A stretch of 25,991 nucleotides of DNA. It comes from a virus. The position numbers were made by a program, and so were the translations under genes. The stretch lies in IMG/VR virus record IMGVR_UViG_3300027782_000320, positions 1 through 25,991 of that record; one strand, given 5' to 3'. The notes below the pieces were generated by a model. That model made no database searches. It was not told where the DNA came from and saw only the letters and a program-made list of their open reading frames with translations. Numbering within the stretch: the stretch's first letter is position 1; the number at the start of each line of letters is the position of its first letter. Shown here one piece after another: positions 326 to 3,484 of the stretch.

Positions 326-2644
326 TCAGAATGGTACTTGAATATGTACAAAGATACCGGCATTACCCCTACCTTCTGTAAAGGTATAGGATTTGTAACC
401 GAGATAAGTTCTAACCCACTGAGCGAAACGCTTAGGTGATGCGTGATTGTTACCCGTTGCCTCAATGAATGAGGACAGCATGACGCTGATATAATGCCTT
501 GTGTCTGTCCATTCGTACTCCATAGCCCAATCATAGAAGTCCTTAGATGTCGATTGAATCACACGCTTTGCCTCAGAGTTAATCGACTTGACTGACTGCA
601 GCCCTGTACTTAGGAAGTTCTGCAGGTTGCTCAGCATATAGCAATCGAATGAGGCCCAGTCCTCAGCATTCCAAGAATCAAATAGTAAGCGCCCGTAAAC
701 GTCCATTGGATTCCTGTTCTCGTTGAAGTACTGATGGAATTCAATCTCATGCCTTCGCCTAGCATGTGAGGAACCCGAGCCATTGATTACATAATTTGTC
801 GTTATGATTACTTTAGGCGCCCTCTCAAATGGTATAAATATCTCATCCTTATTCTTGCGGTTTACCGTGATACCTTCCGTTATAAGTGAGAATATAGACT
901 CAAAATTGAACGATTTTTTAACGTCATCAAATGCCAATATCTGAGTATCAAGGTCAACCCTTTGGTATATAAAATCGCCTTTGTTGGGATCAAATGCCTT
1001 TCCATCTATGATGACCACTTTACGGAAGTGTTTAAGAGCATTTATCATTATCGACTTACCGGAGCCACCATTTGGATTGTCAGATATTAGCTCATCGTTT
1101 ACAATGATTGCCTTTTGGTGTTGTTTATCCTTGTACGAATGGATTAGATACCCAAGAGTCGACTCGAGCGCTTGAATTCTCGATGCGTCGCTATTGCTTA
1201 CCTTATGCACTAAATCTTGAAAATTGTTCTCAATTGGTGCCTGGATATAATTTCGTTTGATTATCTGATTATCCCAAATAAAACCATCGCATGAAATATA
1301 TTTTTGCAGCTCAATTGTTTTTGATGTAATTTTTACAACCCCATTTAAAAATGGAACATAGGCTGTCGATTTAGTATCCTTGATCATCTCCATATCGATT
1401 GATTTTAGCATCGTAAGGAATTGCTCAGAGAATAGCTGTTTTGATTTGCTGACATGGTTCCAAACATCAGGCTCATTTATGAGATAATTCAAAACGTCAT
1501 CTTTGATAATTTCAACACTCGTGATTGTTACAATATTTGACTTAACTTTTACAAATGTCGGCTTAACTGCAGTTTCCGGATAATATTTAAAATAACCTCT
1601 GCGCTCCAAAAATGTCTTAAAAAATATAGGAATTATTACGACAGTCCCCTTGGAATTTATCGCCCAAAATTGATTTTCGTCATGAGTCCCCTCAATCTCT
1701 GAAATTATATCCGGAGTGACGGCATGCTGTTGAATTACTTCCTCTTTTGTCTTAGATTTTAGCGCAAATCGTATCTCATTGATTTTATCGATGTCCTCAA
1801 AGTATTTTGTCCCTGCACTTGATCTCATTCGATTATAGGCATTTTTAAAAACATTGGTTGCCTCATCATCTGAAAAATTCCCATAAATCACGTTATTTAA
1901 GACATAATTCAGTCCATAGTCCAAAGACACCCCATGCTCACAAAATGCCTGCGCCAATACTAAAAGATTATTGTTTCGCGCCCCTTCCTCAAATCCAAAC
2001 TTCTTATCCCACCATTTAACCAGTCGTTTAATAATTTCTGTTTCGTTGGTAATTGGTAAAACTGCGGGACGCTCAGAAATTGAATTTTGATAATCACTGG
2101 ATATTTCAGTAAATACGGTTGCTTTGTCATTAATATAAATATTTGGATCATAAGACTCAAAACAAGCCCTTGAAACGTCTTTATTTTTACTATCGAAGTA
2201 CTGACAAGGGAAACGCTCTGAAAATGCCTTAAATCGCCTCGAATGTTCCTCAGGTGAAGATTTGGGAATTGAAACTACTGCTTTAAATCCTTTTCCGGAT
2301 GGTGAAATAAAAGCTGTGATTACATGCGGAATTATTTTTACCTCATCGAAAACAGATTGAAATTCATTTTCGGGAATTTTATCATAGTCACAGATCATGA
2401 GTCCAGAATGCTGATTTAAGCCTTTTATATTTCTGTATGCAAACGTCCCATTGAACATGATTACAATTGACTTCTTTTTCTCCTGGTCATATTCGTCCCC
2501 TGTTAATGCGCGTAATTTCTCAACGTGTAGTTTAGAGTCTCCATTTTTTATGCGCTCAATGACCTCTAAAAGGCTCATATCAAACGGAATAGAGCCTTCC
2601 TTCGTGTCAAATAGAGATTTGAATAGTGTTATAGTGTGTAGCAT
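326..2644 (-). CDS. Primase-helicase fusion (BT4734/VirE-N-type primase + SF3-like helicase)
   Basis: A 772-residue replication protein. Residues about 1-180 resemble the BT4734-like/VirE N-terminal domain, a primase-polymerase-like fold: there is a C-D-Y-D acidic motif at 85-88 and a 'SPSGKGFKAVVSIP' strand near 113-126. Residues about 200-275 look like the helical primase C-terminal segment. Residues about 490-660 form a phage/plasmid-type helicase ATPase, with Walker A GGSGKS at 526-531, Walker B 'LAFDDV' at about 570-575, and a sensor-like 'KVIITTNYVI' strand followed by an arginine cluster (RRR). It should prime and unwind phage DNA at the fork. The gene lies directly after the repeat-rich gap proposed as an origin, and its first codons overlap one of the repeats. 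Domain calls are by motif. Confidence 0.88.
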   Translation of the reverse strand: MLHTITLFKSLFDTKEGSIPFDMSLLEVIERIKNGDSKLHVEKLRALTGDEYDQEKKKSIVIMFNGTFAYRNIKGLNQHSGLMICDYDKIPENEFQSVFDEVKIIPHVITAFISPSGKGFKAVVSIPKSSPEEHSRRFKAFSERFPCQYFDSKNKDVSRACFESYDPNIYINDKATVFTEISSDYQNSISERPAVLPITNETEIIKRLVKWWDKKFGFEEGARNNNLLVLAQAFCEHGVSLDYGLNYVLNNVIYGNFSDDEATNVFKNAYNRMRSSAGTKYFEDIDKINEIRFALKSKTKEEVIQQHAVTPDIISEIEGTHDENQFWAINSKGTVVIIPIFFKTFLERRGYFKYYPETAVKPTFVKVKSNIVTITSVEIIKDDVLNYLINEPDVWNHVSKSKQLFSEQFLTMLKSIDMEMIKDTKSTAYVPFLNGVVKITSKTIELQKYISCDGFIWDNQIIKRNYIQAPIENNFQDLVHKVSNSDASRIQALESTLGYLIHSYKDKQHQKAIIVNDELISDNPNGGSGKSIMINALKHFRKVVIIDGKAFDPNKGDFIYQRVDLDTQILAFDDVKKSFNFESIFSLITEGITVNRKNKDEIFIPFERAPKVIITTNYVINGSGSSHARRRHEIEFHQYFNENRNPMDVYGRLLFDSWNAEDWASFDCYMLSNLQNFLSTGLQSVKSINSEAKRVIQSTSKDFYDWAMEYEWTDTRHYISVMLSSFIEATGNNHASPKRFAQWVRTYLGYKSYTFTEGRGNAGIFVHIQVPF
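349..356 (-). promoter_or_regulatory. Possible -7 box TATCTTTG before the HNH gene
   Basis: TATCTTTG fits the Bacteroidota -7 consensus TAnnTTTG and lies 25 bases before the HNH ATG, inside the end of the primase gene. No convincing TTG -33 element is seen at the expected distance. It could start a packaging transcript, but chance occurrence is possible. Confidence 0.3.
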
Positions 2645-2790
2645 TCGTGTAGCAAATTTTTTTTTAAGTTATTGATATATAATTGATCGTGTAGCAGTGT
2701 ATTATTTTCCCTTTAAAAAAATTCAAAGACAAAAGTAAATATATAAGAAAGGAATAAGTAGACAACTTTTGCTACATTCTACACGGTCAA
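2636..2790. repeat. GTGTAGCA iteron-like cluster, candidate replication origin
   Basis: GTGTAGCA occurs at 2636-2643, 2647-2654 and 2689-2696, spaced 11 and 42 bases apart (about 1 and 4 helical turns). Inverted 7/8 matches lie at 2770-2777 and 2777-2784. TTGATCGTGTAG (2683-2694) and CTACACGGTCAA (2779-2790) form a 12-base inverted repeat with one mismatch around a very AT-rich stretch (2697-2769). The rest of this 142-base gap between genes is A/T tracts. The position, between two DnaA-like genes and the primase-helicase gene, suggests initiator binding sites. An operator for the primase gene is the main alternative. Confidence 0.6.
2730..2737 (-). promoter_or_regulatory. Possible -7 box TACTTTTG for the primase gene
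   Basis: TACTTTTG matches TAnnTTTG, is identical to the box before the fibre gene (12620-12627), and lies 86 bases before the primase ATG between the inverted repeat arms. The nearest upstream TTG is about 25 bases away, longer than the usual spacing. Confidence 0.35.
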
Positions 2791-3062
2791 TTTTCATCTA
2801 AATAACTGATTAGCAATTGTCTGTATTTTTTGTCCATTTCAAAGTCATTTTGAATTATTTGTAGCTGTTTTGTAATTGACTGAACTTGCATATTCAAAAT
2901 TTGCGAAATTTCAATTTTTTCATAGTCCATAAAATTATATAAAATAAACATTATTTCTCTGCGAATTTTACAAATATGATGTCGAGTGTCATTTTTTATA
3001 ATTGAATTTTCGTCAATTTCATAAATATTTGCAACGTATTTAATTAGTTTTTTGTGTAACAT
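2787..3062 (-). CDS. Degenerate DnaA domain IV-like protein
   Basis: This 91-residue protein is not a textbook family member. Its layout resembles DnaA domain IV: an N-terminal 'IKYVANIYEIDENSII' segment, then arginines and a helix at 34-45 (REIMFILYNFMD), then a helix-turn-helix-like stretch (EISQILNMQVQSITKQLQII, 51-70) and a last helix. The DnaA signature GGRDHTTV is replaced by 'NMQVQSIT', so it either reads another sequence or no longer binds DNA. It overlaps the preceding DnaA-like gene by 19 bases and ends at the edge of the repeat cluster. It may be a partner or antagonist of that protein; this is inference from fold-like pattern and position only. Confidence 0.55.
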   Translation of the reverse strand: MLHKKLIKYVANIYEIDENSIIKNDTRHHICKIRREIMFILYNFMDYEKIEISQILNMQVQSITKQLQIIQNDFEMDKKYRQLLISYLDEN

Positions 3063-3484
3063 TCTAGTATATTTTTTGCATCTTCATAAATCCTCGTTTC
3101 GTATTTATAACCGAGTTCCAAATAATTCTGGTAACATTTAACCCCATGAATAACCGTTGAATGATCTCTGTTCGCAAATCTTCCTATCGCAGCATGAGTA
3201 AAACCATAATCCTTGGCAATAAACATAAAACAAAACCTCACAATTGAAATCGGCCGCTTTCGCTCTGGTCCAGTTATGTCTAAAGGTGTCACCATTGAAG
3301 CTTCGGAAACCGCTTGAAGTATTGCAATCAATTCTTTATTTTCGTCAGGCAACTTTTTTGGATTTATTAATTGTACTTTTAATTTTTGCACTTCGCTTTC
3401 AAGTTCCCGAATCCGAGATTCGCTCATTTTTTGAGTGTTTTGAAGTTTACGGGTTGCGTCCAGATATTTAAGATAATAGTCCAT
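3044..3484 (-). CDS. Phage DnaA domain IV-like replication initiator
   Basis: With the ATG at 3484 this is a 146-residue protein. Residues about 15-42 are a likely coiled coil (RIRELESEVQKLKVQL). Residues about 75-140 match the DNA-binding domain IV of DnaA, with 'FTHAAIGRFANRDHSTVIHG' at 95-114; the RDHSTV segment is the DnaA-box reading signature (GGRDHTTV in bacteria). The AAA+ ATPase part of DnaA is absent, so it cannot act as a full initiator alone. It may bind the phage origin or recruit host DnaA. An upstream in-frame start at 3553 would overlap the previous gene by 86 bases; 3484 overlaps by 17 and is preferred. Confidence 0.8.
   Translation of the reverse strand: MDYYLKYLDATRKLQNTQKMSESRIRELESEVQKLKVQLINPKKLPDENKELIAILQAVSEASMVTPLDITGPERKRPISIVRFCFMFIAKDYGFTHAAIGRFANRDHSTVIHGVKCYQNYLELGYKYETRIYEDAKNILECYTKN

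Follow-up and report, generated by a model that had tools for sequence, protein, structure and literature searches.

Repeats at a candidate iteron-type origin of a phage contig co-vary with the adjacent primase-helicase and not with neighboring DnaA domain IV proteins

Introduction

The phage P4 alpha protein combines a primase and an SF3/D5-type helicase in one polypeptide, and its known partner sites are the ori/crr iterons. In the phage-inducible chromosomal islands (PICIs) of gram-negative bacteria (E. coli), two iteron sets always surround an AT-rich region, and rep is needed for replication (PMC6092414). Rep of the Staphylococcus aureus pathogenicity islands (SaPIs) and Cch2 of the staphylococcal cassette chromosome mec (SCCmec) recognize their iterons via C-terminal domains, and the isolated Cch2 C-terminal domain binds its iterons (PMC7581432). 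Several Pri-Rep alleles exist in replicons of the SaPI/PICI type (PMC6092414, PMC7581432). Here, we describe a locus of this general kind in the IMG/VR virus record IMGVR_UViG_3300027782_000320, a linear phage contig of 25,991 bp that was analyzed over its whole length (hereafter, the window). A 142-bp gap at 2645-2786 lies between the gene for a primase-helicase and the overlapping genes for two small proteins, P0001 and P0002, which resemble domain IV of the initiator DnaA. The genes are as follows.

326-2644, minus strand: primase-helicase with a BT4734-like/PrimPol N-terminal domain and a DUF5906 helicase, the proposed initiator (PF08800, E=2.8e-16; PF19263, E=1.3e-6)
326-574, minus strand: C-terminal part of the primase-helicase, residues 691-772, the proposed origin-binding domain and best predictor of the repeat class (35/36)
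2787-3062, minus strand: P0001, a very divergent DnaA domain IV-only protein of 91 amino acids (NCBIfam DnaA, E=5.3e-6)
3044-3484, minus strand: P0002, a DnaA domain IV-only protein of 146 amino acids (PF08299, E=1.7e-13)

As in the SaPI, PICI and Cch2 systems, a primase and a helicase are encoded near an array of short repeats, and two sets of these surround AT-rich DNA. Unlike in those systems, the repeats are located upstream rather than downstream of the primase-helicase gene, a DnaA domain IV gene precedes the array, and terminase, portal and capsid genes of a tailed phage are present. Whereas PICIs and satellites are without structural genes of their own, the window carries genes for a terminase, a portal, a protease and a major head protein on its minus strand; its source is probably a small tailed phage, and its relatives point to a Bacteroidota host group. 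Similar to P4 alpha, the window protein is a primase and helicase with a predicted origin-binding part at its C-terminus, but the primase domain is of the BT4734/PrimPol type and no sequence similarity to the P4 origin-binding domain was detected. With respect to its iterons and primase-helicase, the locus is a phage version of a known arrangement, and the domain IV proteins are genuine. We consider it probable that the primase-helicase reads an iteron-type origin made up of the gap and the primase start codon, with the domain IV genes as exchangeable neighbors.

Results

The repeats follow the primase-helicase

Related viral loci on contig fragments (numbered L) were gathered by two scans, one with a primase alignment and one with domain IV proteins. 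The order of domain IV gene, gap (~120 to 570 bp) and primase-helicase gene was found in 58 loci that formed 20 gap clusters. An excess of repeats, reached by at most 1 of 60 shuffles, was detected in 14 of the 20 clusters compared with 4 of 120 control windows. At least eight repeat motifs, largely unrelated to each other, were present across the loci.

CTACAC: the window and L004-L006
TCGACAC: L007
TACCGG: L043-L045
GCGTCA/TTGTCA: about 30 loci
GTACAC: L087, L146 and L165
GTGCAA: L115, L116 and others
GTAAAG: L136
GTAGTG: L133
CAAGGG: L169

Natural recombinants among these loci separated the two candidate origin readers, as the same DnaA-like gene occurred with different repeats and the reverse was also seen. 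Domain IV proteins with identities of 100% (L065/L115), 99% (L060/L116 and L049/L133), 98% (L139/L136) and 94% (L165/L169) were accompanied by different repeats and different primases. In the reverse case, L056 and L065 had domain IV proteins with an identity of 29%, the same repeats, and primases that were 97% identical. The DNA identity of 93-97% fell to background at the domain IV stop codon in L065/L115, L060/L116, L049/L133 and L139/L136, and it started at this codon, in reverse, in L056/L065 and L052/L067. In L165/L169, the identity ended 60-100 nt past the stop codon, behind a shared terminator; the first 65 nt after this stop codon contain an identical stem-loop and T-run, which is the likely terminator and marks the exchange point.

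We then scored a nearest-neighbor prediction of the repeat class on 41 distinct loci (36 cases scored). The nearest domain IV protein predicted the class in 22/36 cases, compared with 33/36 for the primase N-terminus, 34/36 for its middle and helicase parts and 35/36 for its C-terminal 82 residues. Between domain IV and the C-terminus, 13 loci were discordant in one direction against 0 in the other (p=0.0002), a value that is only a guide because the loci are related and not fully independent. Furthermore, 32 pairs with a domain IV identity of at least 90% differed in their repeats, compared with only 5 pairs with a primase identity of at least 80%, all of which involved related variants (A/B, D2/K). 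Across the compared sequences, the repeats co-vary with the primase-helicase and not with domain IV, although linkage and function are not fully separable. It is the primase-helicase gene that the repeats accompany from locus to locus, rather than the DnaA-like genes, which makes its product the better candidate for the origin reader.

A preliminary description of this DNA had proposed that the two DnaA-like proteins act on the repeats, which does not agree with the 94-100% identical domain IV proteins found beside unrelated repeats in five comparisons. In its fuller form, P0002, perhaps antagonized or helped by P0001, would be the sequence reader on the CTACAC repeats and would bring in the primase-helicase. 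The domain IV gene does adjoin the gap in 58 loci, the change from CTACAC to TCGACAC in the close group occurs together with a change of the recognition helix from DHST/HHST to HHSS, and the DnaA-box core CAC is common to the repeats of clades A, B and E. However, the TACCGG, CAAGGG and GTAAAG arrays have no CAC core, and proteins only 29% identical stand beside the same repeats; taken with the five comparisons, we regard this explanation as unlikely. An intermediate view, in which domain IV and the repeats co-evolve (clades A to E), was rejected on the basis of identical domain IV genes beside unrelated repeats.

Architecture of the gap in the window

The sequence GTGTAGCA has exactly three copies in the window, at 2636, 2647 and 2689. 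The three copies of TGCTACAC are within 61 bp, whereas 0.38 copies were expected across the whole window from dinucleotide shuffles. Together with two inverted near-copies, they make up five CTACAC-type sites in the gap and the primase start codon, two in one orientation and three in the opposite one, on either side of AT-rich DNA.

2779-2784, plus strand: iteron-like site CTACAC of the upstream pair, pointing away from the primase
2770-2776, plus strand: iteron-like site TGCTACA, pointing away from the primase, 7 bp from the CTACAC site
2697-2768: AT-rich spacer between the site sets, with the conserved block CTTTGAATTTTTTTAAAGGG (minus strand), a candidate melting region
2689-2696, minus strand: iteron-like site TGCTACAC, pointing to the primase
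2664-2678, minus strand: block ATATCAATAACTTAA, invariant in all five close genomes
2647-2654, minus strand: iteron-like site TGCTACAC, pointing to the primase, 42 bp from the 2689 site
2636-2643, minus strand: iteron-like site TGCTACAC, 11 bp from the 2647 site, overlapping the primase start codon

These positions confirm the three repeats and two inverted near-copies of the preliminary description, which had missed the overlap of the 2636 copy with the primase start codon (ATGCTACACAC, minus strand). The inverted repeat that it had placed around an AT-rich core was also recovered, with 14-nt arms at 2681-2694 and 2779-2792, a complementarity of 93% and 84 nt between the arms. The core of this inverted repeat consists of two opposed repeats; L005/L006 retain the additional match in the flanks, which L004 and L007 have lost. 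The gap has a G+C content of 26%, with only 3% of 142-nt windows being lower, and no other 250-nt stretch of the window is as dense in repeats as 2551-2850. A search of 2.9 million viral contigs revealed the longer pattern ATATCAATAACTTAANAAAAA only in the four close relatives, which share the gap and the primase (84-95% identity).

Canonical DnaA boxes (TTWTNCACA) were considered as targets and rejected: 4 are present in the window compared with 5.1 expected, and none is in the gap. The cumulative GC skew of the window was uninformative for the replication start because nearly all genes are on one strand.

The overall layout was maintained in the CTACAC, TCGACAC, TACCGG and GTCAT clades, in which a pair of sites facing the domain IV stop codon is followed by an AT-rich stretch and by primase-facing sites. 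The TACCGG and GTCAT clades have common intervals of 8, 8, 54 and 11 bp, and their gaps align little better than shuffled sequence. Judged by this conserved layout, the gap looks like a conserved replication-start module in related phages, in agreement with the compact module suggested in the preliminary description. The features of an iteron-type Rep-ori found in the window are repeats beside the initiator gene and two sets flanking an AT-rich region; the co-variation of repeats and initiator-helicase was found as well, with linkage not fully separable from function.

The gap could instead be mainly a promoter or operator, in which a regulator on the repeats controls the primase operon while replication starts elsewhere. 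One site overlaps the primase start codon and the sites lie just upstream of the gene, and in pRN1 the gene for the small repressor Orf56 precedes the primase-helicase gene (PMC4234260). On the other hand, the two opposed sets comprise five to eight sites over ~150 bp, surround AT-rich DNA and keep their spacing across clades, which is the pattern of an iteron origin. A promoter scan of the region gave nothing above chance, with Bacteroidota promoters being outside the models of the scan. We consider a mainly regulatory gap quite improbable.

Several other loci differed from this arrangement. L079, L080, L081, L089 and L093 carry six GACGGTC repeats 300 nt upstream of the primase, behind a small open reading frame (82 amino acids) of no recognized family, a comparable arrangement with another neighbor gene; in L079/L081, this again separates the repeats from domain IV. 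In L140, L147, L155-L157 and L171-L173, 9-11 copies of TGTGAA are located 0-180 nt after the domain IV stop codon, and no primase was recognized downstream by the profile used. L139, L136, L165, L169 and L087, whose repeats differ, have a conserved leader in the last 100-150 nt before the primase start, with the pattern GGGGTTTGCGGTTAGCTGCC...AAAAGGTTT...CCTTTCCCC and then a complementary tail. The leader had no Rfam match but looks like a structured RNA or control element. Neither the window nor five related loci gave a match to a known RNA in Rfam.

The primase-helicase

In addition to the Pfam matches given above, the primase-helicase matched phrog_28855 (E=1e-158) and PrimPol_Db (E=1.1e-13). 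Its C-terminal part is its fastest-changing part. Residues separating the GCGTCA loci from the TTGTCA loci were limited to one imperfect column of the primase, residue 35. We also observed that the primases of L165 and L146, which have the same GTACAC repeats, are up to 98% identical per 60 residues in the helicase core and ~30-40% identical at both ends. As judged from these identities, this pattern is domain shuffling inside the proposed initiator.

P0002 is a canonical domain IV without a motor

P0002 scored 50.8 bits against PF08299 (Bac_DnaA_C), passing the curated cut-off of 31.5, and has the signature NRDHSTVIHG. An N-terminal stretch of ~45 charged residues precedes domain IV. All matches of P0002 in the PDB were DnaA, with 1l8q as the top match (E=1.5e-7). 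In the profile scans, domain IV was the sole domain matched in P0002 and P0001; the AAA+ domain III was absent from both, and domain I was likewise not present. The clear signature without the ATPase that had been reported for this protein is therefore borne out by the PF08299 match and the absence of AAA+. The DnaA-box contacts of E. coli DnaA are R399, R407, K415, D433, H434, T435 and T436 (numbering of 1J1V). The canonical contact positions are kept in P0002, in which R75, R83 and K91 correspond to R399, R407 and K415, and D107, H108, S109 and T110 correspond to D433, H434, T435 and T436.

Homologues of P0002 were found in L004, L006, L007, L002 and L013-L037. The identities were 76%, 59% and ~40% in the three close relatives whose contigs cover the upstream DNA, and ~46% for the P0002-type proteins of L002 and L013-L037, which are from a different phage group. 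The position of the gene in L002, immediately after a gene for a DnaB-like helicase, shows that the domain IV protein is also found in other replication contexts. P0002 and P0001 share the domain IV fold with DnaA (PF08299) and with PHROG 27829, annotated as "DnaA-like replication initiation protein", which the clade C relative L043 matches. Unlike DnaA, both are without AAA+ and domain I, P0001 is without the DNA-contact signature, and the repeats do not track them. We found no paper on phage DnaA domain IV-only proteins among the open-licence literature.

P0001 is a divergent copy in a variable slot

The gene for P0001 overlaps that for P0002 by 19 nt, and the signature position of P0001 reads NMQVQSITKQ, as expected from the earlier account of an overlapping second protein with the same helix layout and a replaced signature. 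Against PF08299, P0001 scored 17.2 bits (E=0.0055) and did not pass the curated cut-off; the NCBIfam DnaA profile aligned its residues 4-84 to positions 369-451, which is the whole of domain IV. A profile of phage domain IV proteins scored P0001 at 17.7 bits, a value reached by 0 of 5000 shuffles, with the next-best unrelated natural reading frame of similar length at 10.4 bits. The AlphaFold model obtained with an alignment of phage domain IV relatives had a predicted local distance difference test score (pLDDT) of 87.7 and a predicted template modeling score (pTM) of 0.78, although this alignment biases the model towards the domain IV fold. With this model, the suggested Foldseek comparison for 2787-3062 ranked DnaA domain IV first (3pvp/1j1v, probability 1.00, template modeling scores of 0.83/0.79). 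The single-sequence model was poor (pLDDT of 69.5) and had no Foldseek match. Overall, there is good support for P0001 being a divergent DnaA domain IV. Only one of the DnaA-box contact positions is kept (R34, corresponding to R407), and Q, V, Q and S replace D433, H434, T435 and T436; with these contact residues replaced, P0001 would read another sequence or none.

No convincing relatives of P0001 were found in viral contigs, phage records, 10 related contigs and 396 Bacteroidota genomes; in these searches, P0001 was found in this genome only. L004 and L007 have nothing in the slot of P0001, their P0002 homologue directly adjoining the gap or extending into it; in L005/L006 (3971-4843), the slot is occupied by a cytosine DNA methyltransferase, between the domain IV gene and the gap. 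A cytosine methyltransferase is also encoded upstream of the domain IV gene in phage MW202483 (L096). With nothing in the slot in two relatives and a methyltransferase there in two others, the supposed pair of domain IV proteins is not conserved: of the pair and the repeats that were to be sought in related phages, the repeats and gap were recovered and the P0001-P0002 pair was not. In terms of sequence and position, P0001 is an additional domain IV copy private to this lineage, highly diverged and placed in the variable slot that separates P0002 from the proposed origin.

P0001 might also be decaying or without function instead of serving as a second factor, which would be compatible with our preferred explanation. 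Its occurrence in a single genome, the replacement of all four DnaA-box contact residues in the helix and the empty slot in L004 and L007 are in line with decay. The 91-codon frame is nevertheless open and keeps the hydrophobic pattern and the invariant arginine, a confident domain IV model was obtained with an alignment, and two domain IV proteins per phage, far apart from each other, also occur in L003 (MW202828) and L095. We therefore view decay as a doubtful, though not negligible, explanation.

Discussion

Our preferred explanation is that the two opposed sets of ~7-bp sites flanking AT-rich DNA constitute an iteron-type origin. The phage's own primase-helicase would read these sites, probably by its fast-changing C-terminal domain, and would then load itself and melt the AT-rich part, as for SaPI Rep, SCCmec Cch2 and P4 alpha. 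P0002 and P0001, as domain IV proteins without a motor, would not be the determinants of these repeats.

Several observations weigh against this explanation. As the gap adjoins the primase gene, it could travel with the primase by linkage alone, and the C-terminus is only slightly better at predicting the motif than the N-terminal, middle and helicase parts (33-34/36). The C-terminus has no sequence match to any solved DNA-binding or origin-binding domain. L165 and L146 share their repeats and domain IV protein, whereas the similarity of their primases is found mostly in the helicase core. Moreover, 6/20 gap clusters, including L007, showed no significant repeat excess in the simple test, and the primase relatives L008, L042, L078 and L084, which are without a domain IV neighbor, have no such repeats. 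Regarding linkage, the gap adjoins both genes, and adjacency alone therefore does not explain why the exchange points are on the domain IV side; a recombination hotspot on that side would explain them.

If the primase-helicase reads the repeats, the domain IV protein must have another target or role. The domain IV proteins probably bind other DNA, either their own control sites or, for the canonical P0002, host DnaA boxes, and probably modulate phage or host replication. On our analysis, the most likely options are a control protein like pRN1 Orf56 or a competitor for host DnaA boxes. The window has no excess of canonical DnaA boxes. The locus resembles the orf56/orf904 operon of pRN1 in that the gene for a small DNA-binding protein precedes a primase-helicase gene; it differs in that Orf56 is a repressor with no known relation to these proteins and that no iterons were found in pRN1 (PMC4234260).

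We tentatively raise the possibility that motor-less domain IV proteins form a widespread class of phage replication-region proteins, freely shuffled beside an origin that they do not read and perhaps acting on host DnaA boxes or control sites of the phage. P0001 would be a member with a wholly replaced DNA-reading surface, maybe an antagonist or partner of P0002. The natural recombinants described here predict which protein binds the phage origin, and the at least eight matched primase/iteron pairs of similar geometry may serve as material on origin recognition by such primase-helicases.

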